A DNA stretch of 64,000 nucleotides from Cryptosporangium arvum DSM 44712 (lineage in GTDB: Bacteria; Actinomycetota; Actinomycetes; Mycobacteriales; Cryptosporangiaceae): positions 2,666,001-2,730,000 of the forward strand of contig NZ_KK073874.1 of NCBI RefSeq assembly GCF_000585375.1, given 5' to 3'. The translations under genes were made by a program, and so were the position numbers. This document shows, piece after piece, positions 1-15,208 of the stretch. The notes under the pieces were generated by a model. The model was not told where the DNA came from. It saw only the letters and a list, made by a program, of their open reading frames with translations, and made no database searches. How positions within the stretch are numbered: position 1 is the stretch's first letter; each line of letters begins with the position of its first letter.

Positions 1-807
1 ATCGTCGGGCCCGCGCTCTACGGCCTGGTGATGAGCTTCTACGACACCAGCATGGTCAAGTCCGGCCTTTCGACCTTCGCCGGCCTGCAGAACTACATCG
101 ACGCGCTGGGCAGCTCCGACTTCTGGTCGTCGCTGTGGCACACGTTCTGGTTCACGATCCTCACCACGCCGCCGCTGGTGATCCTCGCGCTGGTGCTGGC
201 CCTGCTGGCCAACCGCATCAACCGCGGCCAGTGGTTCTACCGCCTGGCGTTCTTCCTGCCGTACGTGCTGCCCTCCGCGGTCGTCGCGCTGATCTTCATG
301 TGGATCCTGTCGCCCGGCATCGGGCTGCTCGACACCACGCTGGCCAAGATCGGCATCACCGCCCCGAACTGGCTCGGCAGCGAGACGTGGGCGATGCCGG
401 CGCTGGCGATGACGACGGTGTGGTGGACGATCGGCTTCAACTTCGTGCTGTACCTGGCGGGGCTGCAGGAGATCCCGCGTGACCTCTACGAGGCGGCCGC
501 ACTCGACGGCGCCGGCCCCTGGCAGCAGATCCGGCACGTGACGATCCCGCTGCTCGGGCGCACCACGACGCTCGTCGCGGTACTGCAGGTCATCGCCTCG
601 CTGAAGGTGTTCGACCAGATGTACATCATGACCTCGGGCGGGCCGAACTACTCCACCCGCTCGCTCCTGCAGTACGTCTACGACGAGAGCTTCACCAACT
701 ACCGCATCGGTTACGCGTCCGCGGTCTCGATGCTGTTCTTCCTCGTCGTGCTGGCGGTGTCGATCGTCTGGTTCCGGCTCGTCCGTTCGCAGCAGAAGGA
801 GACCTGA
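1..807 (+). CDS. Sugar ABC transporter permease, MalF type (5' end outside window)
   Basis: The reading frame is open from base 1, so the gene is cut by the window edge and 268 codons are visible. The product is an inner-membrane permease of a carbohydrate ABC importer (binding-protein-dependent transport family). Several hydrophobic segments are visible, and the cytoplasmic EAA loop that docks the ATPase reads EAAALDGAGPWQQ (near base 490). Two bases separate its stop from the next permease, and a GH51 arabinofuranosidase follows, so the importer probably takes up arabinose-containing oligosaccharides (inference). The binding protein is presumably upstream, outside the window. Confidence 0.9.
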   Translation: MVGPALYGLVMSFYDTSMVKSGLSTFAGLQNYIDALGSSDFWSSLWHTFWFTILTTPPLVILALVLALLANRINRGQWFYRLAFFLPYVLPSAVVALIFMWILSPGIGLLDTTLAKIGITAPNWLGSETWAMPALAMTTVWWTIGFNFVLYLAGLQEIPRDLYEAAALDGAGPWQQIRHVTIPLLGRTTTLVAVLQVIASLKVFDQMYIMTSGGPNYSTRSLLQYVYDESFTNYRIGYASAVSMLFFLVVLAVSIVWFRLVRSQQKET

Positions 808-809
808 GC

Positions 810-1691
810 ATGGTCACCGAGACGTTGGCGCCGCCCGCGCGGGCCGATCGAACCGTGACGGTCGCGACCGTCGACCGGCGCGTCGCGATCTTCAACCGGA
901 TCTGCGTCGGCGTGCTCATCGCGTTCGCGCTTCTCTGGCTCGTGCCGATCCTGTGGGCGCTGGACACCGCGCTCAAGCCCAACGCCGAGACCGTCAACAC
1001 CACGTGGTGGATCGACAACCCGACGCTCGCCGCGTTCGGCCGCGTCTTCACCGACACCGACATGCTGCAGTGGTGGGCCTCGACGTTCATCGCATCGGCC
1101 CTGTCGGCGGTGCTGACCGTGGCCACCGCGAGCCTGGCCGCGTTCGCGCTGTCCCGGATGCGCTTCAAGTACCGCACGCTGGTGTTCTGGTTCATCCTCG
1201 CGGGCATCATGGTGCCGTCGCAGGTGCTGATGGTGCCGCAGTTCCGGGAGTTCCAGTCGCTCGGCCTGCTGAACACGTTCTGGGCCGTCGCGCTGCCGCA
1301 GGCACCGACCGCGATCGCGGTCTTCATCTTCAAGCAGTTCTTCGACGGCCTGCCGGCCGACTTGGAGGAGGCGGCCCGCGTCGACGGCGCCGGCTTCTTC
1401 CGGGTCTACTGGCAGATCGTGTTACCGCTGGCCCGCCCCGCGGTCGCCGCGGTCTCGATCTTCACGTTCGTCTGGGCGTGGAACAGCCTGCTCTGGCCAC
1501 TGCTGGTACTGACGAACCCCGACCTGATGACGATCCCGGTGGGGTTGGCGACGGTGCAGGGCGCGTTCGGTATCCGCTACGCCGACACGATGGCGACGGC
1601 GGTGTTGGGCGCGGTGCCGCTGGTCGCGGTGTTCCTGCTGTTCCAGCGGAACATCGTCGAAGGCATCGCCGGTACCGGAATCAAGGGGTGA
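810..1691 (+). CDS. Sugar ABC transporter permease, MalG type
   Basis: This 293-residue permease is the second membrane subunit of the same carbohydrate importer. It has an N-terminal cytoplasmic stretch, about six membrane segments, and the EAA loop EEAARVDGAGFF towards the C-terminus, all typical of MalG-type subunits. It starts two bases after the preceding permease stop, with AAGGAG just upstream of the ATG. The GH51 enzyme begins four bases after its stop. No ATPase gene is adjacent; such importers in actinobacteria often share an MsiK-like ATPase encoded elsewhere (family knowledge). Confidence 0.93.
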   Translation: MVTETLAPPARADRTVTVATVDRRVAIFNRICVGVLIAFALLWLVPILWALDTALKPNAETVNTTWWIDNPTLAAFGRVFTDTDMLQWWASTFIASALSAVLTVATASLAAFALSRMRFKYRTLVFWFILAGIMVPSQVLMVPQFREFQSLGLLNTFWAVALPQAPTAIAVFIFKQFFDGLPADLEEAARVDGAGFFRVYWQIVLPLARPAVAAVSIFTFVWAWNSLLWPLLVLTNPDLMTIPVGLATVQGAFGIRYADTMATAVLGAVPLVAVFLLFQRNIVEGIAGTGIKG

Positions 1692-1695
1692 GTTC

Positions 1696-3195
1696 GTGCT
1701 GCAGGCTTCACTGACGATCGATCCGGCGTTCACGGTCGGGGACGTCGATCCGCGGCTTTACGGGTCGTTCGTCGAGCACATGGGGCGGTGCGTGTACACG
1801 GGCATCTACGAGCCCGGGCATCCCCTCGCCGACGAATCCGGCTTCCGGACCGACGTGGCCGACCTGACTCGGGACCTGGGCGTACCGCTGATCCGGTATC
1901 CCGGCGGCAACTTCGTCTCCGGGTACAGGTGGGAGGACGGGATCGGGCCGGTCGACGAGCGGCCCACCCGGCTCGACCTGGCCTGGCGGTCACTGGAGAC
2001 CAACCGGGTGGGCGTCGACGAGTTCCTGCCGTGGGCGCGGTCGGTCGGTGCCGAGACCATGATGGCCGTCAACCTCGGTACCCGGGGCATCGACGCCGCC
2101 CGCGACCTGATCGAGTACTGCAACCTGCCCGGCGGCACGTACCTGTCGGACCTGCGCCGGAAGAACGGTTCCGCGGAACCCCACGGGATCAGGACCTGGT
2201 GCCTGGGCAACGAGATGGACGGGCCCTGGCAGATCGGCCACAAGACCGCGTACGAGTACGGGCGGCTGGCGTCCGAGACCGCGAAGGCGATGCGGCTGGT
2301 CGACCCGTCGATCGAGCTGGTGGCCTGTGGCAGTTCGAACTCCTCGATGCCGACGTTCGGATCGTGGGAGGCGACGATGCTCGGCGAGACGTACGACCAG
2401 GTCGACTACGTCTCGATGCACGCCTACTACGAGCAGCGCGGCGACGACCGGGACAGCTTCCTGGCGTGCGCGGTCGACATGGACCGCTTCATCGACGCGG
2501 TGATCGCCACCGCCGACCACGTGCGTGCGGTGGGGCGCCGCAAGAAGCGGCTGAACATCTCGTTCGACGAGTGGAACGTCTGGTACCTCAAGCGGTTCGA
2601 GGGCGAGGCGAACCTGGCGATCCGGGAGGCGCCGCCGCTGATCGAGGACGTGTACTCGGTTACCGACGCGGTCGTGGTGGGCACGATGCTCAACAGCCTG
2701 CTGCGCCACGCGGACCGGGTGAAGATCGGCTGCCAGGCGCAGCTGGTCAACGTCATCGCACCGATCATGACGACGCCCGGCGGGGCGGCCTGGAAGCAGG
2801 CGACCTACCACCCGTTCGCGCTGACGTCGCGGTACGGGCGAGGCACCGTGCTGCGGGTGGAGCCGGCCTCGCCGCGTCACGAGACGAAGTGGCTGGGCGA
2901 GGTGCCGCTGCTGGACGCGGTGGCGGTGCAGAACGAGGACGGCGTCTCGCTCTTCGCGGTGAACCGGTCGCAGACCTCCCCGATGACCGTCGACGTGGAC
3001 CTGCGGGCCTGGCCGGGCTACCGGGTGGCCTCGCACGTCATGATCGCCGACGACGACCCCGAAGCGGTGAACACCGCGGAGAACCCCGAGCGGGTGGTGC
3101 CGCGTCCGGTCGAGGTCCCCGCGGTGGACGGGGGGCGGGTCGCGCTGGAACTGCCCGCGCTCTCCTGGAGCCTGGTCCGCCTCGAACGCGCCTGA
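1696..3195 (+). CDS. Alpha-L-arabinofuranosidase, GH51
   Basis: This 499-residue enzyme of glycoside hydrolase family 51 releases terminal alpha-L-arabinofuranosyl groups from arabinan or arabinoxylan oligosaccharides. It has the family (beta/alpha)8 barrel followed by a C-terminal beta-sandwich. The acid/base glutamate is E173 in the LGNEMDGPW motif and the nucleophile is E292 in SFDEWNVWY. No signal peptide is seen, so it should be cytoplasmic and act on imported oligomers. The GTG start overlaps a purine-rich site (AAGGGG) at the end of the preceding permease gene. Length is normal for the family. Confidence 0.95.
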   Translation: MLQASLTIDPAFTVGDVDPRLYGSFVEHMGRCVYTGIYEPGHPLADESGFRTDVADLTRDLGVPLIRYPGGNFVSGYRWEDGIGPVDERPTRLDLAWRSLETNRVGVDEFLPWARSVGAETMMAVNLGTRGIDAARDLIEYCNLPGGTYLSDLRRKNGSAEPHGIRTWCLGNEMDGPWQIGHKTAYEYGRLASETAKAMRLVDPSIELVACGSSNSSMPTFGSWEATMLGETYDQVDYVSMHAYYEQRGDDRDSFLACAVDMDRFIDAVIATADHVRAVGRRKKRLNISFDEWNVWYLKRFEGEANLAIREAPPLIEDVYSVTDAVVVGTMLNSLLRHADRVKIGCQAQLVNVIAPIMTTPGGAAWKQATYHPFALTSRYGRGTVLRVEPASPRHETKWLGEVPLLDAVAVQNEDGVSLFAVNRSQTSPMTVDVDLRAWPGYRVASHVMIADDDPEAVNTAENPERVVPRPVEVPAVDGGRVALELPALSWSLVRLERA

Positions 3196-3207
3196 CGCTC
3201 GCCGGTG

Positions 3208-3241
3208 CCGACCGGTCCGGTGTGGACACCGGGCCGGTCGG
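3208..3241. terminator. Bidirectional hairpin between convergent genes
   Basis: Arms at 3208-3223 and 3226-3241 form a 16-bp stem, with one G-T wobble and a 2-base loop. It lies between the converging ends of the arabinofuranosidase gene and the helicase gene. There is no T-run, as is common for actinobacterial terminators. Confidence 0.75.
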
Positions 3242-3264
3242 GCCGGGAGCAGGCAGCCGGGGGG

Positions 3265-4572
3265 CTACCAGCTGACGGTGTGGGGCTCCAGATGAGCGAG
3301 CATCGTCTGGTTGGCGGCCCAGCCGTCCGGGAACTTGACCGGGTCTCCCAGGTGCACCGGTGCGCTGGAGGGGTGGGCGTCGAGCAGGTCGCGGATGCCG
3401 GCGCGGGCCACGATGACGCACGCCTGCCGGTGGCGTGACGCGAGCACGCACAGGCGGCCCGCCTCGAGGTGGAACGCGGTCGCGTCGCGCCGGCCGGAGA
3501 GCGGGTGCAGGAAGACCGTGACGTCGTACTCGCGGCCCTGCAGGCGGTTCGCGGTGTCGACGACGATCTCCGGGTGGTTGAGCGCGGCCCGGATCGCGGC
3601 CACCTGATCGCGGTGGGCGGCGCCGACCGCGATCCGTGACGGGCCGACGGACGTCACCTCGGAGCCGTCCCGGGCGGTGGCGCCCCGCTCCAGCAGCCGC
3701 CGGGCGATCGTGGCGACCGCCTCCACGGCCTCACCGTCGGTGCGCAGCGTGTGCCGCCGGGGCAGCTCCACCAGGCTCCACCCGGTCTTGGCCGCCGTCG
3801 TCAGCACCGCGTCCTCGACGCCGTGTCCGGCGGTGCGGAAGCCCAGTTCGCGCTCGCCCGGCCCGGTGCCGGTACGGAACCCGGTGAACGGGTAGAACGC
3901 TTTCGCCACGACGTCCTGCGCCGAGTACGGCAGCCGCCACGAGACGGGCAGCCGGTGCACCGGAACGGTCGGGTTGTTGCGCAGCAGCACCGAGATCGCG
4001 CTCTGCATCGGATCCCAGGTCAGGCCGCGCCACCGGTCGTTCTCCACGGTGGAGAACGGGTCGAGCTGGCCCGGGTCACCCACGAACAGCGCCCGCTCGA
4101 ACCGGGCCGCGAGCACGAGCAGCGCGTCCGAGCGCATCTGGTAGGCCTCGTCGACGATCGCCCACGGCCACACCGCGTCGCGCACGTGCGCCCACTTGGC
4201 CGCGGTCGCGATCGTCACGAGCGGATCGTTCAGGTCCGCGAGGGCACTGGACACGACGACGTTGGGCAGCGCGGCCAGCCGCGGCGGCGCGACGAACCCG
4301 CCCCGGGACAACCGGCCGATCCGCGCGTCCGGCCGCGCCTCGAACAGCGGCGCCGCGAGGCGCACGATCAGGTCGTCGACCTGCTCGTTGGTCTGCGCGA
4401 CGATCATCAGCCGCTCGCCGGCCCGCGCGAGCTCCAGCGCGGCCCGCACGACGAGCGTCGACTTGCCGGCACCGGGCGGTGAGTCGACGACGATCCCGCG
4501 GTGCGCCCCCGAGCGCAGGTCGGTGAGGATCGCGTCGGTGGTCCGGGCGGCTTCGGCCGCGGGGTCGATCAT
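3265..4572 (-). CDS. SF1 (Upf1/Dna2-like) helicase or ATPase
   Basis: This 435-residue protein carries a full superfamily 1 helicase motif set: Walker A PPGAGKST (32-39), motif Ia QTNEQVDDL, motif II VDEAYQ (140-145), motif III GDPGQLDP (165-172), motif IV SWRLP (211-215), motif V NRLQGREYDV (342-351) and motif VI SRHRQA (379-384). The QGRE form of motif V is characteristic of Upf1/Dna2-like enzymes. It is essentially a bare helicase core: no N-terminal nuclease or zinc domain is fused. The ATG at 4572 overlaps the upstream stop (ATGA), which favours it over the GTG two codons earlier. It is the last gene of a coupled cassette with a Cas4-like nuclease. The substrate (DNA or RNA) is not known. 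Confidence 0.85.
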   Translation of the reverse strand: MIDPAAEAARTTDAILTDLRSGAHRGIVVDSPPGAGKSTLVVRAALELARAGERLMIVAQTNEQVDDLIVRLAAPLFEARPDARIGRLSRGGFVAPPRLAALPNVVVSSALADLNDPLVTIATAAKWAHVRDAVWPWAIVDEAYQMRSDALLVLAARFERALFVGDPGQLDPFSTVENDRWRGLTWDPMQSAISVLLRNNPTVPVHRLPVSWRLPYSAQDVVAKAFYPFTGFRTGTGPGERELGFRTAGHGVEDAVLTTAAKTGWSLVELPRRHTLRTDGEAVEAVATIARRLLERGATARDGSEVTSVGPSRIAVGAAHRDQVAAIRAALNHPEIVVDTANRLQGREYDVTVFLHPLSGRRDATAFHLEAGRLCVLASRHRQACVIVARAGIRDLLDAHPSSAPVHLGDPVKFPDGWAANQTMLAHLEPHTVSW

Positions 4573-6011
4573 TCCCACGTCTCCACGGCGTCCTCGTCGG
4601 TGGGCACGTACGGCTCCGGGGGGCCGCCGTGCGTCCAGGGCGTGTCCTCCACCGGCGGCAGGTTCGGTCCCCGCCCACCGGAGGACAGGACGCTGCTGTA
4701 GGTGAGGTCGTCGCCGACCCGGGGCAGCGCCTCGCGCAGTCCCTTGGCGATCTCGACGGTCACCAGCCCGTCGTCGATCTCCAGCACGCGGCCGGACTGC
4801 TTGGGCCGCGCCGGCGACCCGACGGCGGTGCCCACCGCCAGGTGCACCGGGTCCTCGGTGCGCACGACCACCAGCGGCCGCTTCACCAGGTTGCCGTTCT
4901 CGTTCTCGACGCGGCGCTCGGCGTCCACCTCGGTCACCGTGCCGCGGAACGCCTCACCGGTGACCCGGAAGTCGGCCATCACCCGGGGGTCGTCGAACGA
5001 CCGTGACACCGCGTACTCCTGGTGGGCCCACTCCAGGCGCAGCAGCCGCCGCGCCGCGGCGACGGCACCGTCCCGGCGCGCCTGCGGCAGCCCGTCCTCG
5101 GCCATCCACCGGTGGAAACTCGCGTACTGACGAGCGTCGGCGGCCCACCGGCCCGCGACCGACCCGCCCGGCGTCAGCGTGCGCATCCGGTCGATCGCTC
5201 GCCACACCAGCTCCCAGGTCGGCTGGGTCTGGCCGCGGAGCGCGGATTCGAGACCGGCCAGCGCGCGCCGGCGCAGTGCGGAGCCGTCGGGGGACGAGCC
5301 GTAGGCCGAGATCGCCGGGGAGAGCACCTCGTTGTCGAACGTCGGATCGGTCGACGGGCCGGCCGGCGGCCACCGCAGCGCGTCCTCGGCGTCGCGGGCG
5401 GCCTCGCGGGCGGACCGGCCCGGCGGCGGGTCGATCCAGCCGAGCAGCGCCGCCAGGTTCGCGTCCTCCAGCGCGCTCTGCCCGGTGGCCCAGTGCGCCC
5501 CGAGCACCTCGGTCGCGGCCAGCAGCGTGCTCGCGCCCGGGTACTCCGACCGCTCGGCGAACCAGGTCAGCCACCGCCCGAGCACCGGCACCCCGGGCGC
5601 CACCGGGTAGGGACCGGTGGTGCGGCGGAAGCGCGTCGAGCGTCCGAACAGGCGCAGGAACGCGAACCCGCCGCGGTTGGGCACCCAGAGCTGGGGCGCG
5701 TCGTCGGCGGTGGGCTCGTCGCCCTCGGTGACCGGGAACCCCGACAGGTAGTCCAGAACGACGTCGGCCAGCGACGCGGCGAACGCGAACCGCAGCTGGC
5801 GGTCGCGGGGCTGCGGCACGATCAGCAGGCGGGGCGAGGCCGGGTCGGTGCCGACGAGCGCGGCCAGCGGCGCGTTGGCCTCACCGGCCAGCGCCAGCGG
5901 CACCAGCACCAGCGGGCGCGCCGCGACGTGCACGTGCGCGACCGTCGTGATCGGCTGCGCGACGCCTTCGACGACCGCCAGCGCCCGCGCGTACGCGGCG
6001 ATCGCGCTCAT
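4569..6011 (-). CDS. Unrecognised protein of helicase-nuclease cassette
   Basis: This 480-residue protein matches no family I recognise. It lies between the Fe-S nuclease gene and the SF1 helicase gene and shares 4-base ATGA overlaps with both, so the three are translated together. The first two thirds look alpha-helical and rich in Trp, Arg and Ala. Residues of about 340-425 are rich in alternating hydrophobic and charged residues (FRGTVTEVDAE, RPLVVVRT, SGRVLEIDDGLVTVEI) and look like a small beta-barrel. Upf1-like helicases carry a barrel (domain 1B) in or before their core, so this protein may supply that part in trans (inference). The acidic tail ends DEDAVETWE. Confidence 0.7.
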   Translation of the reverse strand: MSAIAAYARALAVVEGVAQPITTVAHVHVAARPLVLVPLALAGEANAPLAALVGTDPASPRLLIVPQPRDRQLRFAFAASLADVVLDYLSGFPVTEGDEPTADDAPQLWVPNRGGFAFLRLFGRSTRFRRTTGPYPVAPGVPVLGRWLTWFAERSEYPGASTLLAATEVLGAHWATGQSALEDANLAALLGWIDPPPGRSAREAARDAEDALRWPPAGPSTDPTFDNEVLSPAISAYGSSPDGSALRRRALAGLESALRGQTQPTWELVWRAIDRMRTLTPGGSVAGRWAADARQYASFHRWMAEDGLPQARRDGAVAAARRLLRLEWAHQEYAVSRSFDDPRVMADFRVTGEAFRGTVTEVDAERRVENENGNLVKRPLVVVRTEDPVHLAVGTAVGSPARPKQSGRVLEIDDGLVTVEIAKGLREALPRVGDDLTYSSVLSSGGRGPNLPPVEDTPWTHGGPPEPYVPTDEDAVETWE

Positions 6012-7105
6012 GCGCTCTCGGAGAAGACGCGCGCGGTCGTCCGGAGCACCGCCGCGACCTCGGCCTGGTGCTCGTCGCCGGCCCAGGTTCCCTGGGCCAG
6101 CTGCAGCGCCTCGGCGATCGTGTCGACGCCGCCGAGCTGCTCGCGGACGGCGGTGCCGAGCGCGTCGGTGCACCCGGTGGCTTCGTCGCGGCAGAAGAAA
6201 CCGAGCTCGCAGTGGCCCAGGCAGTCGGGGGAGTACCGGGCGGACAACTCGCCGAGCGACGCGGTGAGTTCGGCGACCGGGCGGGTCGGGGTGCCCTCGG
6301 GGTCCGGTGCGAGCCCGAGCGTCAGCCCGGCGGGAAGCGCGCTCAGCAGCGTGTCCACGTCGTCCATCCGGGTGAGCTGGTGGTCGAGCACGAGCAGCTG
6401 CTTGCGGACGTCGACCTTGGTGGCCACCGGCCGGTTGGAGAAGTCCTTCGGGCACACCAGGACGACCTCGTCCGCGACCGCCTCCGGGCGGCCGAGCAAC
6501 TGCCGCAGCGCGTGCACGTAGACGGCCGACTGGATCGCGGCGGCCGCCACCTTGGCCGGGTCGGCCTGCCCGTCGATCACCGCGAACGACTTGATCTCGA
6601 CGACGTGGTACACGCCGTGGTGCTGGAACGCCACCAGGTCGGGCTCCAGGTACACGCTCTGTCCGGCCACCACCAGCCGCAGCAGCGGGTGGTCGAACAG
6701 CGTGTTCTCGTCGCCGTGCGCGAGCCGCTGCTCGGAGTAGGTGTTGCGGGCGTTCTCGGAGACGTTGTCGCCGACGCTCTCCAGGTCGGCGTACGCGACC
6801 TCGGTGAGATCGAGGTCGAGGGTCTCGCGCAGCAGCGTCAGCAGCTCGGCGCAGCCGTCGGCCTTCAGCTGGGCCTCGAAGGCGTTCCCGCGGGTGATCG
6901 CGAACGACGACTGCCCGAACGGGGCCGGGAACTCGAGGTGGCGGGCCAGCGCGTCCTTGTCGATCCCGGCGGTGTCGAGCACCGCACGTCGGACGCAGCC
7001 CGGGTTGGTGGTCAGCGCCGCGATCGTGCGGGCGTTGTGGCGCTTCGGCGGCACGCCACCGCGCAGCTGGTCGAGCCGGGGATCGGGCGGGGGAAGCTTC
7101 GGCAC
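6008..7105 (-). CDS. Cas4/AddB-type PD-(D/E)XK nuclease with Fe-S cysteines
   Basis: This 365-residue protein has the signature of RecB-family nucleases: RGNAFE (72-77), the metal ligand Asp156 in EPDLVAF, E170-I-K172 on the next strand, and the QxxxY motif Q192-Y196. One N-terminal cysteine (Cys37) and three C-terminal ones (Cys295, Cys299 and Cys305; C-x3-C-x5-C) bracket the fold, as in the 4Fe-4S nucleases Cas4, AddB and Dna2. It should cut DNA, probably from ends (family knowledge). The GTG at 7105 is preceded by GAGGA at good spacing. The frame is open further upstream but lacks a better start. It overlaps the next gene by ATGA. Confidence 0.82.
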   Translation of the reverse strand: MPKLPPPDPRLDQLRGGVPPKRHNARTIAALTTNPGCVRRAVLDTAGIDKDALARHLEFPAPFGQSSFAITRGNAFEAQLKADGCAELLTLLRETLDLDLTEVAYADLESVGDNVSENARNTYSEQRLAHGDENTLFDHPLLRLVVAGQSVYLEPDLVAFQHHGVYHVVEIKSFAVIDGQADPAKVAAAAIQSAVYVHALRQLLGRPEAVADEVVLVCPKDFSNRPVATKVDVRKQLLVLDHQLTRMDDVDTLLSALPAGLTLGLAPDPEGTPTRPVAELTASLGELSARYSPDCLGHCELGFFCRDEATGCTDALGTAVREQLGGVDTIAEALQLAQGTWAGDEHQAEVAAVLRTTARVFSESA

Positions 7106-7146
7106 GGAGGTCCTCGGGGAAGGCGTCTCTACGGGAACAGTGTGAC

Positions 7147-7962
7147 TCAGGTGGCGCGGGCGTTGCGGCCGACGACGCCGAACTTGGTTCCGAACAGCTG
7201 CTGGGCCTCGTCCAGGCGGTCGCGCGCGCGGCGGGCGGCTTCGGCGCGTTGCCGCTCGTCGGTGTCGCGGTGCAGTTCGAGTTCGGCGAGCGCGGCGGCG
7301 GCCACCGCCGGTGCGGACGTCTGGTCGGGGCCGGCCGCGACTCCGGGGACGTTCCCGGCTCCGGGGATGTTCGCGGCGAACCGCCAGAGCAGCCGGCGCG
7401 CCGCCGGGCCCGGGTCGGCCAGTCGCTGGACGTGCTCGGCCAGCCGGGCGGCCGCGGTGAGGAAATCGACGCGTGGGCTGAGCGGACCGATGACACGCGC
7501 GGACATCGGCCAGGTGGACACCGCGAGCAGCCCGCGGGCCGGCGCGAGGAGGTCCGCGGTGAGCGCCGCGCACAGGTAGTACGGCCGCATCTGCGGCGCC
7601 GAGCGGAACGACCGCTCCTCGTCGCGCCGCAGGCTGGTCAGCCGGGCCGACGTGAGGCCGCCGGTGGAGAACGCCTCGTGCACCTGGACGATCAGCTTCG
7701 GCGCGGCCGGCGCTCCGAGCATCGTCAGCGCCTGGTGGACCTGCTCACGCAGGGGGAGCAGCGCGGCCGGAGCCGGTGCGGGCCCGGCGGGCTCGGAGTC
7801 CGGCGCCAGCGCTTCGAGGGCGGACTCCCACTCCCGCTCGGTGCGGTGGAGTTCGGTCCGCAGCGTGCGGGCGCGGGCCCGTTCGCCCGCGGTGACGGCC
7901 CGGCGGACCGCGGCGCGCAGGTCGTCGATGCGGCGCTCCAGTGCCTCGGCCGGTCCGGTCAC
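7147..7962 (-). CDS. Hypothetical protein, probable winged-helix first gene of cassette
   Basis: This 271-residue protein has an N-terminal charged coiled coil (about 5-45, ALERRIDDLRAAVRRA). A region of about 70-140 has the pattern of a winged helix (LREQVHQAL, VHEAFSTGGLTSARLTSLRRDEERSF), and the C-terminal part is helical. I do not recognise a named family. The GTG at 7962 has CGGAG five bases upstream and begins where coding character starts. A 41-bp gap separates it from the nuclease gene, so it is probably the first gene of the four-gene operon. It could be the cassette's DNA-binding or regulatory component (inference). Confidence 0.65.
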   Translation of the reverse strand: MTGPAEALERRIDDLRAAVRRAVTAGERARARTLRTELHRTEREWESALEALAPDSEPAGPAPAPAALLPLREQVHQALTMLGAPAAPKLIVQVHEAFSTGGLTSARLTSLRRDEERSFRSAPQMRPYYLCAALTADLLAPARGLLAVSTWPMSARVIGPLSPRVDFLTAAARLAEHVQRLADPGPAARRLLWRFAANIPGAGNVPGVAAGPDQTSAPAVAAAALAELELHRDTDERQRAEAARRARDRLDEAQQLFGTKFGVVGRNARAT

Positions 7963-8093
7963 GGCTCCGAATTTAGCTCGTTCCAGTATTCTCCAGCAAG
8001 ACCCAGTGAATTCCACCCTCCACCACCGCGTTCCCCCGTTGCCGCCGGAGCGGGCATGATAGGAGGGTGTTCGGTTCACAGGAAGGCCAGTCG

Positions 8094-8789
8094 TTGAATA
8101 CGGGTTTCCGGGGCGTCATCGCCGTCGACGGCCCCTCGGGATCGGGCAAATCGAGTGTCTGCCGGGAGGTGGCCCGCACGCTCGGCCTCCGCTACCTCGA
8201 CACCGGCGCGATGTACCGGGCCGTCACCTGGGCCGCGCTCGACCGCGGGCTCGACCTCACCGATCAACCGGCGGTCGCCGCGCTCAGCCGGGCCCTGGTG
8301 CTCGACGTCGCGACCGACCCGGCGTCGCCCCGGATCGCCGTCGACGGCGTCGACGTCACCGCCGCCATCCGGCAGACGCGGATCTCCGAGAACGTCAGCG
8401 CGATCGCGACGAACCTCGACGTCCGGTCCGACCTGATCGCCCGGCAGCGGGCGCTGATCGAGGAGAAGGGCGCGGGGATCGTCGCCGAGGGTCGGGACAT
8501 CACCACGGTCGTCGCGCCCGACGCCGACGTGCGCCTCCTGCTCACCGCGGACGAGAACGCCCGGATCGCCCGTCGCGCCCGCGAGCTGCACGGCAACGAC
8601 GACGCGGCGTCGCTCGCCGCCACCCACGCCCAGATCGCGACCCGCGACGCGCGTGACTCCACCGTCGTGGACTTCCTCGTCGCCGCCGACGGTGTCGTCG
8701 AGATCGACACTTCCCCTTTGACGTTCGAGCAGGTCGTCGCCGCCGTCCTCCGCGTCGTCTCCGAGACCGCAGGAGCCCCGGCCCGATGA
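8094..8789 (+). CDS. cmk: Cytidylate kinase
   Basis: This protein of about 231 residues phosphorylates CMP and dCMP with ATP in pyrimidine nucleotide metabolism. The P-loop is at residues 13-20 (GPSGSGKS). The family features [16 protein letters not shown] and a lid rich in arginine (ARIARRARE) follow in order. I chose TTG at 8094 because AGGAAGG (8080-8086) precedes it at 7 bases. A GTG at 8067 in the same frame has AGGAGG touching it, too close to be ideal. Its stop overlaps the start of der (ATGA), the usual actinobacterial cmk-der pair. Confidence 0.95.
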
Positions 8790-10204
8790 GCGACAACTGG
8801 ACTCAGCTCGCTGAGGAATACGAAATCTCCGACGCCGAGCTGGCCTCGCTGGACTCCGACGAGGGCGGTGACGACGACGTACCGGGCGCACTGCCCGTGC
8901 TCGCGGTCGTCGGCCGGCCCAACGTCGGCAAGTCCACGTTGGTCAACCGTGTCCTCGGCCGCCGCGAAGCGGTGGTCCAGGACGTTCCCGGCGTCACCCG
9001 CGACCGCGTGGCCTACGACGCGCTGTGGAACGGCCGCCGCTTCACGCTCGTCGACACCGGCGGCTGGGAGCCCGACGCCCAGGGCCGTGCCGCGGCGATC
9101 GCCGATCAGGCCCGGTACGCGATGACGGTCGCGGACGCGGTCCTGCTCGTCGTCGACGCGCGGGTCGGCATCACCGAGACCGACGCGGCCGTGGCCCGGG
9201 TGCTGCAGCGCGGCGGCAAGCCGGTGGTGCTCGCGGCCAACAAGGTCGACGACACCAAGGGCGAGGCCGACGTCGCCGAGCTCTGGCGCCTCGGCCTCGG
9301 CGAACCCTGGCCGGTCTCGGCCCTGCACGGCCGCGGCTCCGGTGACCTGCTCGACAAGGTTCTCGAGGTGCTGCCCGAGGCGCCCCAGGAAGGCCGCTTC
9401 GGCACCGGTGGCCCGCGCCGGGTCGCGCTCGTCGGCCGGCCGAACGTCGGCAAGTCGAGCCTGCTCAACGCCGTCACCAAGGAGAACCGCGCGGTCGTCG
9501 ACGCGGTCGCGGGTACCACCGTCGACCCGGTCGACAGCCTGGTCGAGCTGGGCGACGAGGTGTGGCGTTTCGTCGACACCGCGGGCCTGCGCAAGAAGGT
9601 CACGTTCGCCAGCGGCGCCGAGTACTACGCCAGCCTGCGAACCGCGGCCGCGATCGAGGCCGCCGAGGTGGCCGTCGTCCTGCTCGACGCCAGCGAGCCG
9701 CTGAGCGAGCAGGACCAGCGCGTGATCACGACGGTTGTGGAGACCGGCCGCGCGCTCGTGCTGGCGTTCAACAAGTGGGACCTGCTCGACGAGGACCGCC
9801 GCGAGCTGCTCGAGCGCGAGATCGACCGTGACCTGCAGCGGATCCGCTGGGCGCCGCGGGTCAACATCTCCGCGCGCACCCGGCGGGCCGTCGACAAGCT
9901 CGCGCCCGCGCTGCGTACCTCGCTGGAAGGCTGGGAGCAGCGCATCCCCACCGGGCGGCTGAACAGCTGGCTCTCCGAGCTGGTCGCGGCCCACCCGCAC
10001 CCGGTGCGTGGCGGCAAGCAGACCCGCATTCTGTTCGCGACCCAGGCCGGCAGCAAGCCGCCCCGGTTCGTGCTGTTCACCAGCGGCCCCGTCGACGTGG
10101 CCTACACGCGGTACATCGAGCGGCGGCTGCGCGAGGACTACGGGTTCGCCGGCACGCCGATCCAGATCACGGTGCGGATCAAAGAAAAGAGAAAACGTCG
10201 ATGA
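8786..10204 (+). CDS. der: Ribosome assembly GTPase Der (EngA)
   Basis: This 472-residue GTPase has two tandem G domains and helps assemble the 50S ribosomal subunit. The first P-loop, GRPNVGKS, is at 43-50 and the second (GRPNVGKSS) near 217. Both G domains carry the DTGGW/DTAGL switch and the NKVD/NKWD base-recognition motif, and a C-terminal KH-like domain ends in the basic tail KEKRKRR. The N-terminal 30 residues are acidic and specific to actinobacterial orthologues. It is translationally coupled to cmk upstream and overlaps the next gene by 4 bases. Confidence 0.97.
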
Positions 10205-10797
10205 GCGTGATCTCGCCCGGTTTCACCGGACGGCGTCGGCACGACCGGGACTTACCGCCCGGCCAGTACCTCACCGAGGACTTCCCGGTGCTCACCTACG
10301 GCCCCACGCCGCAGGTGGACCTGGAGGAGTGGAACTTCGGCATCGTCACCGAGACCGGCGCGATCCACGGCTGGGGCTGGGAGGCCCTGCAGGCACTCCC
10401 GCGCGAGACGCCGCACGTCGACATCCACTGCGTCACCAAGTGGTCGAAGCTCGACACCGACTGGGAGGGCGTGTCGCTGGACACGCTGTTCGAGAACATC
10501 GAGACCGAGGCCGAGTACGCGAAGGTCTACTCCTACGGCGGGTACTCGACGAACCTGCCGCTGGAGGACCTGCTCGACGGCAAGGCCTGGATCGCGTTCG
10601 GCTTCGACGGCCAGCCGCTCGAACCCGAGCACGGCGGGCCGGCCCGGCTGCTGGTCCCGCACCTCTACTTCTGGAAGAGCGCGAAGTGGGTGCGCGGCAT
10701 CCAGTTGCTGCTCGAGGACGAGCCCGGGTTCTGGGAGGAGAACGGCTACCACAACTACGGCGACCCCTGGCGCGAGCAGCGCTACGAGGGGGACTGA
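10201..10797 (+). CDS. Molybdopterin-dependent sulfite-oxidase-like oxidoreductase
   Basis: This 198-residue protein is a single-domain member of the sulfite oxidase/YuiH molybdopterin family. The conserved cysteine ligand of molybdenum is probably Cys77 in [12 protein letters not shown], and the family tail [14 protein letters not shown] is present. No Tat signal is visible, so it is likely cytoplasmic. It overlaps der by 4 bases, and a flavin-dependent reductase begins one base after its stop; that partner would supply or accept electrons. The substrate is unknown. Confidence 0.88.
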
Positions 10798-10798
10798 G

Positions 10799-11536
10799 GT
10801 GGTCAGGCGGCTGTCCTGGCAGGTGGGTACCGTCGCCGCGGTGCGCGACGAGACGGCCACCGCCCGCACGCTCGTGCTCGACGTTCCGGACTGGCCGGGG
10901 CACCTGGCCGGTCAGCACCTCGACGTGCGACTGACCGCTCCCGACGGGTACTCCACCGAACGGTCGTACTCGATCTCGTCCGCGTCGGCTCCGGGCCGGG
11001 TCGAGATCACCGTGCAGGTCGTGGACGACGGTGAGGTGTCGCCGTACCTGGCGCGGGTGCTCTCGGTCGGTGATCCGCTGGAGCTGCGCGGACCGGTCGG
11101 CGGGTACTTCGTCTGGCGTCCGGGGGCTGAGTCACCGACGGCGGCCGAGCCGGTGCAGCTGATCGCCGGCGGGTCGGGCATCGTGCCGCTGATGGCGATG
11201 GTCAGGGCCCGGGCCCAGGCGGGGTCGGATGCGCCGTTCAAGGTGCTCTACTCCGTGCGGAGCCCGGCCGAAGCGATCTACCCGTCCGAGCTGGCCGAAC
11301 TCGGCGTCGAGGTCACCTACGCCTATACCCGGCGCACCCCGCCGGACTGGCCGCTGCCGCCGGGCCGGGTCGGTGCCGGGCTGCTCGCCGCCCACACCTG
11401 GACCCCCGACGACAAGCCGCGGGTCTACGTGTGCGGGCCGACGCCGTTCGTCGAGACCGTCGCCAACCTGCTCGTCGACGCGGGGCACGATCCGGCGTCG
11501 ATCCGTACCGAGCGCTTCGGTCCTACCGGAAGGTAA
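10799..11536 (+). CDS. Ferredoxin-NADP-reductase-type flavin reductase
   Basis: This 245-residue oxidoreductase of the ferredoxin reductase family has an FAD-binding beta-barrel (RSYSISSASAP, about 56-66) and a C-terminal NAD(P)-binding half (IAGGSGIVPLMAMVR and YVCGPTPFVE). No 2Fe-2S domain is attached. It follows the molybdopterin protein with one base between stop and GTG start, so the two almost certainly form an electron-transfer pair. The role is known only by family. Confidence 0.9.
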   Translation: MVRRLSWQVGTVAAVRDETATARTLVLDVPDWPGHLAGQHLDVRLTAPDGYSTERSYSISSASAPGRVEITVQVVDDGEVSPYLARVLSVGDPLELRGPVGGYFVWRPGAESPTAAEPVQLIAGGSGIVPLMAMVRARAQAGSDAPFKVLYSVRSPAEAIYPSELAELGVEVTYAYTRRTPPDWPLPPGRVGAGLLAAHTWTPDDKPRVYVCGPTPFVETVANLLVDAGHDPASIRTERFGPTGR

Positions 11537-11601
11537 AGCTTCTCCTATCTCAGTACGGTCCGTGCCGGTACCGTCGCACGGGAGTGGTAGCTTCCGCCCC
11601 G

Positions 11602-14499
11602 ATGAGCGCGACGCAGCAACTCACCCCCCGGGCTTCCGAGAGCCCCGCCGAAGAAAAGTCCCCCCGCTGGTGGCGACGCCGACCGGATCCGTTGGTCACG
11701 ATCGTCGTCCTCGCGATCGCCGCGTTCGCGCTCGGCGGCATCGGATCGCCGCTGTGGGGCGGCAGCTCGCTCACCGAGACCGGCCTGCTCGCGCGGGTCG
11801 CGCCGTACACCGACGGTGAGCTGCTCGGCGTCCAGCGCGAGACGCTCGACCTGGGCGACACGGTCGACTCCGCGATCCCGAACGCCGCGCTGTTCGGCGA
11901 TGCGATCCGGTCCGGCGAGTGGGCCAACTGGAACCCGTACGCGCTCGGCGGCGGTTCGCTCGGCGGCACCCCGAACGCCGGGATGGCCTCGCCGGTCGCG
12001 CTGCCGTTCTGGTTCCTGCCGGCCTGGCTGGCGTCGGCGTACATGCTGCTGCTGCAGATCGTCGTCGCGGTCGGCGGCAGTTATCTGTTCCTGCGGCGGC
12101 TGAAGCTGGGGAAACCGGCCGCGCTCCTCGGCGGGCTCGCGTTCGCCACCAGCGCGTTCATGATCGTCTGGGTGAACTGGCCGCAGAGCCGGGTCGCCGC
12201 GTTCGTCCCGGCGGTGTTCTGGGCGCTGGAGTGCGTCGTGCAGAACCGCCGGCCGCGTGACGCGGCGCTGCTCGCGCTCACGTGTGCGGCGATGTGGCTG
12301 GGCGGCTTCCCCGCGGTCACCATGTACGCGCTGGTCACCGGGGCTTTCTACGTGATCGTCCGGTCGGCGGCCGAGCACGGGTGGACCCGGCGCACGCTCG
12401 GCGTCTGGCTGCGTGCCCTGGCCGGGGTCGGCACCGGCGTCGCGCTCGTCGCGATCCAGATCCTGCCCTGGGTGTCGATGATGTCCACGGTGCTGGTGCG
12501 TGGCCGCGAGCAGACACCCGACCAGCACATCCCCACCCAGGTGCTGCTGACCTCGATCGCGCCGTACGTGTTCGGCACCGTGCAGCCACCCGAGGGCCCG
12601 TACTGGTACGAGACGCGGATCTTCCTGGAGGAGGTCGCGTACGTCGGGGCCGGCGTCGCCGTGCTGCTGATCGCCGCGATCGCGCTGTTCCGCCGGGCGC
12701 GGGTGGCGCTGCCGAGGGGCGCGTGGTGGTTCTTCGTGGTGTCCACCGCGGTCTGGGGCGGCATCATCTTCCTCGGCGGGCCGCCGCTGGCGCTGTTGCA
12801 GAAGCTGCCGTACCTGTTCAGCGACAACGCGGTCGAGCGCGCCCGCAGTGTCCTCGGATTCGGCGTCGCGGTGATCGCGGCGGTGGGGTTCCAGCTGCTG
12901 CTCGACCGGGCTCGCGACCACCGGCCGCTGAGCGACAAGCGCCGCGCGGTGTGGGGCGGCGCGGTGTGGGCGGGCGTGGCCGCGTTCGGGGTCGTGCTGT
13001 ACGTGTCGGCGCGCCGGTTCGCGCTGGTGCACGACGCCGAGTGGGGGTTCCCGGGCGGCGGGCCGCACCTCGGGTGGCTCAACCGCGAGCTGGCGATCGG
13101 CCTGATGTTCGTGTGCGCCGCGCTGGGCGCCGCGGGCTGGCTCTGGTTCGCGCCCAGGCACCGCGCGCTGCGCCTGGCCGCCGCCGCGCTGATCCCGCTC
13201 CTCGTCGCCGCGCAGGCGCTGCTGTGGGTGCACAACTACTGGCCGCGGACGCCGGTGAAGAACTTCTACCCGGTCACCGACACCCACCGGTACCTGGAGG
13301 CCAACCTCGGGCACGAGCGGTTCTGGGGTTCCAACGGCGCGGTGCTCGGCGGCGTCCACCAGCTCCACCGGCTGCGGGGGCTGCAGGGCCACTCGTTCGT
13401 CGAGGCCCGGTTCGCCGAGCTGCTCGAGGCGTTGCCCGGCTACCAGTTCAGCCCGCCGCCGAAGCCGGCGACGTTCCTGTGGCCGCAGCCGCTCAACGAC
13501 GGCACGTCACCGACGAACCCGATCCTCGACCGGCTCTCGGTCGCCGAGTACGTCACGCCGGCCACGCAGATCCCGTACGGCGTCGAGAAGAAGGACGCCG
13601 GGGACGCCTCGACGTACACGTTGTCCCCCGGCCGGCCGGTGAGCGTGCCGGTGCCGGTCACCGGGCCGATCCGCGGCATCGGGGTGACGCCGGTGTCGCG
13701 GGACGTCACGGAGACGTACGCGCGGTGGATCGGTGTCGTCCTGCGGGACTCGAGCGGGCGCGAGGTGGCCCGGTCCGAGCGGGTCGACCGCGCCATCGCC
13801 GCCGACCAGCCGTTCTACGTGCCGCTCGCGGCCGAGGACGTGCCGGCCGGCACCCGCCTCACGGCCGAGATCTCGCTCCGGGGGGACGCGCCGCTGCTCG
13901 TGGCCGGTCGGTCCGGGGCGCCGGCGCTCTCGACGGTGGCACGCACCAACGACGGGCTGACGCTGGTGAAGGACGGCGACGCGATCGTCTACCAGCGCGC
14001 GACCGCGCTGCCGCGGGCGCGGTGGGCGTCGAGCGTGGTCGTGGAAAGGTCGTCCGAGCGTCGGCTGGGCCTGCTCGCGGACGGGGCGCTGGCGGCCGAC
14101 GCCGTGGTGCTCGACGCGCCGGGCGGTGCCGCCGAGGGCAAACCGGCCACCGTGCGGTGGGTCGACGACGGTTTCGACGAGATGCGGCTGGCCGTGGACG
14201 CCGAGGGCGCCGGGTACCTGGTGCTCGCCGACGCGATCCAGTCGACGTGGCGGGTGACGGTCGACGGTCGTCCGGCCGACCTCGTCCGCGCGGACCACGG
14301 GCTCGCGGCGGTGCACGTCCCGGCCGGGACGCACACGATCGACTTCTCGTACGCCCCGAAGTACGCCGGCCTCGGCGCCTGGCTCAGTGCGGGCACCGCG
14401 ATCCTGCTGGTCGCGGCGGTCACCGGCGAGTGGTGGTACCTACGCCGCCGGCGTGCGGATCGCGCTGAAGGTGGTGTTCCGGCGAAGGACGAAGCCTAG
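11602..14499 (+). CDS. YfhO-type large membrane protein
   Basis: This 965-residue integral membrane protein of the YfhO family has about 12 hydrophobic segments in the first two thirds and a C-terminal beta-rich extracytoplasmic domain before a last membrane helix. The topology resembles GT-C lipid-linked sugar transferases, and YfhO relatives are linked to glycosylation of cell-wall polymers. I used ATG 11602 (MSATQQ); the frame extends upstream without coding character. The last 60 bases overlap the convergent GNAT gene. Confidence 0.85.
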   Translation: MSATQQLTPRASESPAEEKSPRWWRRRPDPLVTIVVLAIAAFALGGIGSPLWGGSSLTETGLLARVAPYTDGELLGVQRETLDLGDTVDSAIPNAALFGDAIRSGEWANWNPYALGGGSLGGTPNAGMASPVALPFWFLPAWLASAYMLLLQIVVAVGGSYLFLRRLKLGKPAALLGGLAFATSAFMIVWVNWPQSRVAAFVPAVFWALECVVQNRRPRDAALLALTCAAMWLGGFPAVTMYALVTGAFYVIVRSAAEHGWTRRTLGVWLRALAGVGTGVALVAIQILPWVSMMSTVLVRGREQTPDQHIPTQVLLTSIAPYVFGTVQPPEGPYWYETRIFLEEVAYVGAGVAVLLIAAIALFRRARVALPRGAWWFFVVSTAVWGGIIFLGGPPLALLQKLPYLFSDNAVERARSVLGFGVAVIAAVGFQLLLDRARDHRPLSDKRRAVWGGAVWAGVAAFGVVLYVSARRFALVHDAEWGFPGGGPHLGWLNRELAIGLMFVCAALGAAGWLWFAPRHRALRLAAAALIPLLVAAQALLWVHNYWPRTPVKNFYPVTDTHRYLEANLGHERFWGSNGAVLGGVHQLHRLRGLQGHSFVEARFAELLEALPGYQFSPPPKPATFLWPQPLNDGTSPTNPILDRLSVAEYVTPATQIPYGVEKKDAGDASTYTLSPGRPVSVPVPVTGPIRGIGVTPVSRDVTETYARWIGVVLRDSSGREVARSERVDRAIAADQPFYVPLAAEDVPAGTRLTAEISLRGDAPLLVAGRSGAPALSTVARTNDGLTLVKDGDAIVYQRATALPRARWASSVVVERSSERRLGLLADGALAADAVVLDAPGGAAEGKPATVRWVDDGFDEMRLAVDAEGAGYLVLADAIQSTWRVTVDGRPADLVRADHGLAAVHVPAGTHTIDFSYAPKYAGLGAWLSAGTAILLVAAVTGEWWYLRRRRADRAEGGVPAKDEA

Positions 14500-15156
14500 T
14501 TTCTCGTAGAGGGCGATCGCTCCGGTGTTCGTCGCGGCGGCGTGCAGGAACGGCACCTCGCCACGGGCCCGGATGCCGGCCGCGACCGCCAGCACGAGCC
14601 GGCTGCCCAACCCCTGCCCTCGGTGGGCGGGGTCGGTGCACACCGCGCTGATCTCGGTGTGGCCCGGTGGGCGCATCCGCTCACCCGCCATCGCGATCAG
14701 CGCTCCCTCGCGGCGGATCCCGAGGTAGGTGCCGAGCTCGATCGTCCGCCGCGCGAACGGACCGGGCCGGGTCCGTTCGACCAGCTCGAGCATCTCCGGC
14801 ACGTCCGCCGTGGTCAGCCGGATCGCCTCCGGGTCCGTCCGGGCGTCGACGGTCGCGTCGATCAGCTGGACGCCCGGCGCCGAGAACTCGATGCCGAAGC
14901 TCTCCGGCGGGGTGACGTCCAGCGCCGTCAGCGACAGCACCGCGTCCGGGCCCAACAGCGCGATCACGTCGTCCCACACCCGGGCGTCCGCGCCGGGGGC
15001 GAGCACGCCGAGCGGGGACACGTCGGGCAGATAGCGGGCGGCCTGCCCGTGGATCTGCGCCAGGTGCCGGTGCGCACCGGTGAGCGAGGCCCAGGCAGCG
15101 TGGTCGAGCGGGTGCGGCTCGACGGTGGTGCCCGGCGGATTCTGGACGATGCTCAC
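14440..15156 (-). CDS. GNAT family N-acetyltransferase
   Basis: This 238-residue protein carries a C-terminal GNAT fold. Motif A (RGQGLGSRLVLAVA, about 178-191) binds acetyl-CoA and motif B ends in ALYEKLGFVLRR. The first 110 residues form an extension that looks like a second, degenerate GNAT-like half, as in two-domain family members. The substrate is unknown. It converges on and overlaps the YfhO-type gene by 60 bp. Confidence 0.85.
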   Translation of the reverse strand: MSIVQNPPGTTVEPHPLDHAAWASLTGAHRHLAQIHGQAARYLPDVSPLGVLAPGADARVWDDVIALLGPDAVLSLTALDVTPPESFGIEFSAPGVQLIDATVDARTDPEAIRLTTADVPEMLELVERTRPGPFARRTIELGTYLGIRREGALIAMAGERMRPPGHTEISAVCTDPAHRGQGLGSRLVLAVAAGIRARGEVPFLHAAATNTGAIALYEKLGFVLRRNTTFSAIRTPAA

Positions 15157-15208
15157 CGGATGAGCCTACGAGCGCCCGGGCCGATCCGCCCGGCCCGCGT
15201 GGCTCCGG

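Follow-up and report, generated by a model that had tools for sequence, protein, structure and literature searches.

A conserved actinobacterial gene set probably encoding a helicase-nuclease of the DNA2/Bad kind split over three proteins

Introduction

Do a nuclease and a helicase that are encoded side by side in an actinobacterial chromosome, with a protein of no recognizable family between them, form a single enzyme, and what would such an enzyme be for? This question is raised by positions 3265-7962 of a 64,000-nucleotide stretch of the Cryptosporangium arvum DSM 44712 genome (contig NZ_KK073874.1, positions 2,666,001 to 2,730,000; the whole stretch is called the window), where four minus-strand genes, here named A, B, C and D in their order of transcription, can be read as open reading frames. 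An original prediction made from the letters alone described them as a four-gene cassette of a winged-helix-like protein, a Cas4/AddB-type iron-sulphur (Fe-S) nuclease, an unrecognised 480-residue protein and a superfamily 1 (SF1) Upf1/Dna2-like helicase, and proposed an anti-phage or genome-integrity machine that fits no named system. Our analysis shows that B, C and D are a conserved unit with A as an optional addition, and leads us to favour, with fair but not full confidence, the view that the three proteins together make up a single DNA2/Bad-type DNA helicase-nuclease driven by ATP.

Results

Conservation of the gene set

Gene B occupies positions 6008-7105 of the window (minus strand; 365 amino acids (aa), GTG start), gene C 4569-6011 (minus strand; 480 aa) and gene D 3265-4572 (minus strand; 435 aa). 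The stop codon of B overlaps the start of C as ATGA at 6008-6011, and that of C overlaps the start of D in the same way at 4569-4572 (both on the minus strand). Both junctions were read in the sequence. The predicted coordinates, strand, gene order and overlaps were right.

A search of named genomes with B alone gave at least 506 loci, of which the best 80 were used (numbered with the prefix L below); Streptomyces, Kitasatospora, Actinacidiphila and Yinghuangia account for 59 of these 80 (L033-L091). C directly follows B in 80/80 loci, and D follows C in 75 of the 79 testable ones (74 by the script rule plus L019, with an overlapping frame; one locus ends too early). Only in four loci from Micromonospora and Spirilliplanes (L021, L023, L024, L030) does D not adjoin. 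Among 200 genomes of the window's order, B is present in 25, in 28 copies, and D at 575 bits or more is found in the identical 25 genomes, again in 28 copies. D matches in 50 other genomes of the order reach at most 189 bits and represent other helicases, many of them in frames of ~1,150 aa. Gene order that failed to recur across genomes had been named beforehand as an outcome that would count against the cassette; these figures display the reverse.

Co-occurrence extends to genomes in which the genes lie apart. In one family (f15, Micromonospora-like by its neighbours), each of the 19 positive genomes has one B and one D copy, 10-104 kb apart or on separate contigs, and none has one alone. 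Kinship among the genomes makes a p-value for the co-occurrence of B and D meaningless. Four Micromonospora-like loci (L170, L172, L175, L176) carry D without adjoining B-C, the pair being retained in the same genome. In a sample of the phylum (246 genomes), C occurs in 10 genomes, and B in those 10 plus one distant match that turned out to be a full B-C-D operon, with identities of 24-28% for B, 21-27% for C and 32-35% for D and with GTGA overlaps; it lies near genes read as integrase and beside a UvrD_C/PDDEXK protein. Searches of plasmids with B and with C separately led to the same 3 plasmid records.

NTGA overlaps join C and D in 77/90 loci (21/26 with A and 56/64 without), and B and C in 24/26 A-bearing versus 19/71 A-less loci. 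The correlation of pairwise distances is 0.97 among B, C and D and 0.88-0.90 between A and any of these three. By gene order and obligate co-occurrence, both established by computation, B-C-D is a real unit. A chance cluster or an operon confined to one genome was considered and is ruled out by the conserved adjacency and the co-occurrence of B and D across genomes. Separately, neither B nor C accompanies two D-like helicases (196 and 164 bits; L167, 6318-7541, and L168, 6857-8203), whose surroundings seem alike: each has nearby a similar gene pair, for an AAA ATPase-like protein and one of ~445 aa, and also a gene for a protein of ~380-390 aa with no recognizable kind.

Domains of the three proteins

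By its sequence, D is a Upf1/IGHMBP2/DNA2-type SF1 helicase core with two RecA domains, in agreement with the prediction. Pfam assigns AAA_11 (2.5e-9) and AAA_12 (3.1e-8), and a D profile run against PDB sequences is led by SMUBP-2 (4e-11), DNA2 (3e-10) and UPF1 (8.8e-7); a further profile comparison matched DNA2 at 1.5e-13. The Walker A motif PPGAGKS (4459-4479, minus strand) keeps its GK in 96 of 97 homologue rows, the other being a gap, and the same count holds for the Walker A lysine together with the DE box. This motif stands at residue 32, with no domain ahead of it, where Upf1 and DNA2 carry a stalk and a barrel. The PADLOC profile MkoA matches D at 2e-11 through the helicase core only, and there is a weak profile match to LfDda (PDB 9kwf; 4.3e-6).

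B has no match in Pfam, NCBIfam or PHROGs, and in PADLOC only a marginal one to CARF_PDDEXK (E 0.054). Its structure was predicted with a pLDDT (predicted local distance difference test) of 90.7, and Foldseek ranked RecE first (E 1.4e-4, alone below 0.001), followed by Cas4 SSO0001 (1.9e-3), AdnAB, MGME1, Cas4 of type I-C, DNA2 and EXO5, with root-mean-square deviations (rmsd) that are mostly large. Judged by the predicted fold and the motifs D, ExK and Q-Y, B is a Cas4/RecB-type PD-(D/E)XK nuclease. Residue conservation was read from 97 homologue rows (96 distinct). The nuclease core runs from EPD (D156) to EIK (E170, K172) at 6590-6640 on the minus strand; D156, Q192 and Y196 are present in 97/97 rows, E170 and K172 in 93/97. 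The active site, whose lack of conservation was the other outcome set against the prediction, is thus kept among homologues. Three C-terminal cysteines (C295, C299 and C305, arranged as C-x3-C-x5-C; 6191-6223, minus strand) occur in 97/97 rows each and a fourth, C37 (6995-6997, minus strand), in 96/97 plus one X. The four span the nuclease domain and would hold an Fe-S cluster; predicted fold, motifs and cysteines fit the Cas4/AddB-type Fe-S nuclease first proposed.

C draws nothing better than E 0.3 in Pfam, NCBIfam, PADLOC and PHROGs, and is as unrecognised as first described; against PDB sequences it has no match up to E 10. In its AlphaFold2 model (pLDDT 91.4), an N-terminal part without recognizable fold (~1-210) leads into long helices (223-350) and then a beta-barrel (354-439), and the tail carries a conserved PWTHGGPP. 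The model suggests that the helices and barrel (residues 223-439; 4695-5345, minus strand) are the stalk and 1B barrel of a Upf1/DNA2-type helicase. Compared with a fused nuclease-helicase family of the same order, a profile of the C barrel finds its best match just upstream of the helicase core (E 0.026, reversed control 0.69). Because C ends in helices and a barrel that D lacks, B+C+D reads as a DNA2-like enzyme split over three proteins, which sharpens the comparison with DNA2 drawn at the outset. The PWTHGGPP motif near the C end (window 4569-4700) is nearly invariant despite lower model confidence there; the tail is perhaps a docking peptide for D.

A two-gene form is found in one genus of the order (five genomes), where a ~900 aa protein is encoded next to a D homologue (2.5e-32). 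With ten rows from five genomes, the N-terminal third of this protein, a nuclease part of Fe-S type, is matched to B at E 4.1e-6 (probability 87%, reversed control 0.087); a match of its middle to C, at E 0.0039 with two sequences, is no better than a reversed control when the ten rows are used. The gene pair lies at L169 5351-9560 and L202 2358-6628 and is also seen in L199, L200 and L201; its D homologue measures ~470-500 aa. The catalytic glutamate of the larger protein seems absent (VAKDY for EIK), and in one genome that protein is divided between two frames. Enzymes of similar layout thus likely exist as one, two or three chains.

An optional fourth gene

Gene A (7147-7962, minus strand; 271 aa, GTG start, charged N-terminal stretch) has no match under E 0.6 in Pfam, NCBIfam, PADLOC or PHROGs, and its best PDB sequence match is a short coiled-coil chain (E 0.008); such matches neither support nor exclude the winged-helix-like label. 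A adjoins B in 15/79 testable loci, in L012 as a fragment only, and is present in 9/200 genomes of the order, all B-positive and one with a fragment only. What stands of the four-gene cassette is therefore a conserved core, B-C-D, to which A is optional rather than a fixed fourth gene.

A keeps particular company. SbcD and SbcC lie in 5/15 A-bearing versus 0/64 A-less loci (4/14 versus 1/65 if L012 is counted as A-less), and an ATPase of SMC_N type (SMC, structural maintenance of chromosomes) lies in 3 further A-bearing loci and in no A-less locus. An SMC-type ATPase of either kind thus accompanies 8/15 A-bearing and 0/64 A-less loci, or 7/14 and 1/65 with L012 moved; L022, L025 and L026, like L013, L017 and L018, are close kin, which leaves few independent cases. 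SbcCD also lies beside copies in L094, L127, L131 and L173; L132 retains remnants of it, and at its edge L174 has part of an SMC_N-type ATPase. A relative of the window in its genus (L099, 9319-12290) has two genes between A and cmk, for an SMC_N-type ATPase of 843 aa and a protein of 124 aa, both absent from the window. A search for an SMC-type partner of A elsewhere in the window's genome found no close copy of the L099 ATPase and only a 64-residue match (E 2.8e-6).

The history of A was read from a B+C+D tree of 46 rows, in which one in five of the A-less L033-L091 was kept (quick search, no bootstrap, midpoint root, one very long outlier). The presence of A needs 7 changes on this tree, which may be too many, as three A-less labels are doubtful (L029, at a contig end, and the identical L012 and L171, which carry an A fragment). 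Since the first-branching rows, the distant outlier aside, are A-bearing, A is probably ancestral and was lost several times. The first-branching A-bearing rows L127, L094, L131, L173, L032, L025, L022 and L026 carry SbcD and SbcC. Streptomyces copies fall in three places of the tree.

Genomic neighbourhoods

Plasmid copies of A-B-C-D lie between SbcCD genes and Wadjet genes. On the L131 plasmid, four genes come after the cassette, with the annotations DUF3375, DUF4194, ATP-binding protein and Wadjet JetD domain; in L132 the first three of these come after it. We take DUF3375 and DUF4194 to be JetA and JetB. Other A-bearing copies have nearby Hachiman HamB (L025), Wadjet JetA/JetB/JetC and HmaA (L017), JetC and a type IV restriction gene (L014), a type I restriction gene (L013), three pPIWI_RE components (L059) or a type III methyltransferase, the second gene downstream of D (L055). 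In L174 (3761-6103) a GmrSD_N-type gene separates C from D, and type I methyltransferase genes lie downstream. Mobility genes occur near two copies, a recombinase (Pfam, L173) and an integrase (by our reading, L126).

At E 1e-40, PADLOC matched 65 families among 97 neighbours from 14 loci; of the 25 families shown among these, 17 are kinase-type and 8 are JetA, JetC, JetD, HmaA, HamB, PprDinG or methyltransferase models. The same threshold gave 8 families, all kinase-type and one protein each, among 144 neighbours from 15 A-less loci. These 97, taken to represent A-bearing loci, were drawn from 136 called proteins and include 9 from L126, which has no A. The proteins left out came from L133 (all 16) and L093 (8), whose genes look like ordinary chromosomal ones, from L059 (4, repeating L055) and from L099 (6); 4 SbcCD repeats and 1 mis-called gene were also dropped. 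The A-less control covers 144 of 155 neighbours, 11 from L098 being dropped. The dropped neighbours make the contrast between A-bearing and A-less loci sharper than the full count would.

The A-less copy has a single fixed neighbourhood in ~50 of the Streptomycetaceae loci sampled. Downstream of D in this locus we noted a conserved 122 aa protein and a protein matching Prim-Pol (1.8e-5, scanned in L056); the two genes are placed at L056 13016-13606 and L087 12465-12833 and form clusters of 52 and 50 loci. A different arrangement is seen in L055, L059, L061 and L063 (~600-17000), which have an A-bearing copy with LIR for EIK in B. The cassette of this clade stands divergent to pPIWI_RE components, which bring a PD-(D/E)XK nuclease of their own (as scanned in L059), and an SNF2-type helicase (L059) or the type III methyltransferase (L055) lies downstream; this is maybe a merged system in which another nuclease took over.

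The window's genome is one 9.2 Mb contig with a single D match at E 0.001. The cassette is flanked at the D side by a plus-strand gene read as arabinofuranosidase (1696-3195) and at the A side by plus-strand genes read as cmk and der (8067-10204).

Discussion

How the parts would work together we infer as follows, and this concerns complex formation, the Fe-S cluster, polarity, substrate, the roles of C and A, and defence alike. D would be the motor, with its two RecA domains; C would dock on it through stalk and barrel and add a domain without recognizable fold; and B would be the Fe-S nuclease that cuts the strand being threaded, unwound, translocated or displaced. By analogy with DNA2 and Bad, such a complex would travel along single strands in the 5'-3' direction, and flaps or resected ends would be what it cuts. 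A-B-C-D was probably the ancestral form, often with SbcC-SbcD (Rad50-Mre11 homologues) or another SMC-type ATPase, acting in defence islands on foreign or damaged DNA ends, with A as a likely specificity or control protein that couples B-C-D to SbcCD or the SMC-type ATPase. A would have been lost from the common copy in Streptomyces, Micromonospora and Frankia, leaving BCD as a resident machine, probably of genome maintenance, whose target would be damaged or stalled host DNA. The anti-phage or genome-integrity role stays a proposal: many A-bearing neighbourhoods point to defence, and the A-less resident copies fit genome maintenance. A more far-reaching version, which we put forward tentatively, holds that a six-gene anti-mobile-element machine of A-B-C-D and SbcC-SbcD was ancestral, travelled on plasmids and islands, and was domesticated several times in Streptomyces, Micromonospora and Frankia with loss of A and SbcCD.

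A number of observations weigh against this picture. Foldseek with the C model found nothing below E 0.001; ModE came first and DNA2 (5ean) second, at E 0.017 with an rmsd of 19 and without rigid superposition, and the close-fitting matches (2.5-2.8 A) are N-terminal barrels of F1-ATPases. The barrel profile match in the fused family has a probability of 1.9% only, and with ten rows from five genomes C matches the middle of the ~900 aa protein at 0.02, with the reversed control at 0.013. The model makes a barrel in C likely; a helicase barrel is not proven. E170 and K172 of B are lost in the four rows of one Streptomyces clade (L055, L059, L061, L063). D might manage without C, by analogy with LfDda, a Dda-type SF1 helicase of 434 residues that, according to the available portion of its description, unwinds DNA 5'-3' without a partner protein (PMC12724130). 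The window's own copy is outside any defence island; it and the copies of its genus relatives lie by genes read as cmk and sugar-use genes, and a Nonomuraea copy has ordinary-looking genes around it. C was not found in the phage collection, and of the 33 and 21 pattern matches of B and C in IMG/VR viral contigs zero were confirmed; a phage-borne module was dropped on these grounds.

Four other explanations deserve comparison with a B-C-D helicase-nuclease that served defence before it became resident. The set could be a housekeeping complex for DNA-end resection or flap processing, vertically inherited and without a defence role, with islands merely collecting genes. We regard this as doubtful, though the fixed A-less neighbourhood in Streptomycetaceae and the purely kinase-type PADLOC matches near the 15 A-less loci speak for it, as do B and D in 4/4 genomes of the window's genus and B and C in 7 genomes of one large-genome family of the phylum sample, for which genomes without a match are not all listed. 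It sits poorly with the patchy occurrence in the order (25/200 genomes), the three places of Streptomyces copies in the tree, the plasmid copies between SbcCD and Wadjet genes, and the recombinase and integrase near two copies.

A restriction-like system that senses DNA modification, its specificity coming from A or a neighbouring methyltransferase, seems improbable. Such a role would agree with the type III-like methyltransferase beside Bad in Geobacilli, as far as the available text of that report goes (PMC7430649), and with the methyltransferase genes in L055 and L174, the latter with its GmrSD_N-type gene. Most loci, however, have no conserved methyltransferase in the cassette, and L055 falls within the clade whose B lost E and K.

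We give slightly less credence still to the idea that the proteins are co-expressed yet act on their own, with B a free nuclease, D a free helicase and C a regulator. The 10-104 kb between D and B-C in Micromonospora-like genomes would fit this, and so would the partner-free action described in the accessible text for a Dda-type helicase of D's size (PMC12724130). Against separate action, B and D are matched in presence and copy number even when apart, and D has no domain ahead of its Walker A motif, where Upf1 and DNA2 have the stalk and barrel that C seems to carry. An RNA-directed helicase-nuclease, suggested by Upf1 and the MkoA profile (2e-11) among the relatives of D and by Upf1-type helicases that act on RNA, is very unlikely, as B groups by fold with the DNA nucleases Cas4, RecE, AdnAB and MGME1, the partners are SbcCD and other DNA systems, and the similarity of D to DNA2 and SMUBP-2 is no less than that to Upf1.

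If B-C-D is a split helicase-nuclease, a large group of antibiotic-producing bacteria has an unnamed multi-subunit DNA2-type enzyme, accompanied at some loci by Mre11-Rad50 homologues of its own. With the subunits separate, the nuclease, motor and barrel of a DNA2-like enzyme could each be examined individually, and the mobile state with A and the resident state without it would make the step from immune system to genome maintenance testable.

Comparison with known systems

A known defence system was considered and dropped: in PADLOC 2.0.0 A and C match no model, B has the marginal match only, and D matches through its helicase core only; with Pfam, NCBIfam and PHROGs included, A and C still have no match below E 0.3. 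Searches of the open-licence literature listed no description of the B-C-D set. The claim that no named system fits thus holds for PADLOC systems and needs amending in one respect, as a single-chain bacterial relative, Bad, has been published (PMC7430649, here and below as far as its available text extends).

Bad of Geobacillus stearothermophilus is a single chain of 1,245 aa that has an Fe-S nuclease first, an SF1B helicase last and between them a central domain whose structure is unknown. It unwinds DNA 5'-3', acts as an endonuclease on single-stranded DNA and occurs sporadically, and in the Geobacilli examined it adjoins a type III-like methyltransferase; its authors suggested a restriction-like, modification-sensing role (PMC7430649). 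B+C+D has the same order of parts, from an Fe-S RecB/Cas4-type nuclease to an SF1B helicase, at a similar length (1,280 aa), and is likewise sporadic; for Bad, too, a restriction-like role is suspected. In contrast to the one polypeptide of Bad, B-C-D comprises three genes with an optional A and SMC-type partners in some loci; the two were compared by description, not sequence, and by position only C may be the counterpart of the central domain. Eukaryotic DNA2 is ubiquitous and essential and lacks the central domain of Bad (PMC7430649). Like B-C-D it joins a nuclease to a Upf1-type helicase, and it is among the weak fold matches of the B and C models; unlike B-C-D it is a single chain. B-C-D shares with DNA2 and Bad the nuclease motifs D, ExK and Q-Y, the four conserved cysteines and, judging from sequence, the Upf1/DNA2-type SF1B core, whereas the window and the B-C-D loci examined encode nuclease and helicase in separate genes. 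Because the single-chain architecture is missing and the central domain of Bad is known by description only, B-C-D is not a DNA2/Bad member in the strict sense; it is a widespread, unnamed module and a variant of the DNA2/Bad kind.

Closer at hand are fused nuclease-helicases of ~1,140 aa in the same order, presumably of TM0106 type, whose helicase core is clearly homologous to D (profile E 4e-24); these are single chains, and their nuclease and middle match B and C weakly (E 0.06). The TM0106-type NCBIfam model had no match above cut-off in the A-D proteins, whose genes are separate. A fused B-C-D chain in the order was sought among the fused homologues of D (one class of 18) and rejected, as these match C and B weakly only.

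AddAB and AdnAB are also helicase-nucleases with an AddB-type Fe-S nuclease domain, and AdnAB is among the fold matches of B. They have UvrD-type helicases with the nuclease fused to the motor, unlike D, which is of AAA_11/AAA_12 type, and B, which is a separate gene. Mokosh MkoA shares the Upf1-type helicase core with D. Mokosh has kinase and PLD parts; neither component was found among the A-D proteins in Pfam or PADLOC. LfDda resembles D as an SF1 5'-3' helicase core and differs from it in belonging to the Dda family and in forming a homodimer with pin and tower domains, with no nuclease partner described in the available text (PMC12724130).

A functional parallel may lie with archaeal HerA-NurA, which, in the partial account available, resembles the proposed B-C-D in combining a motor with a nuclease, the two acting in end resection together with Mre11-Rad50. 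The components differ: HerA and NurA belong to other protein families than D and B, the motor of B-C-D being SF1 and its nuclease Cas4-like. B-C-D with SbcCD would then be a bacterial counterpart of Mre11-Rad50 with DNA2, and a functional parallel of archaeal HerA-NurA with Mre11-Rad50.

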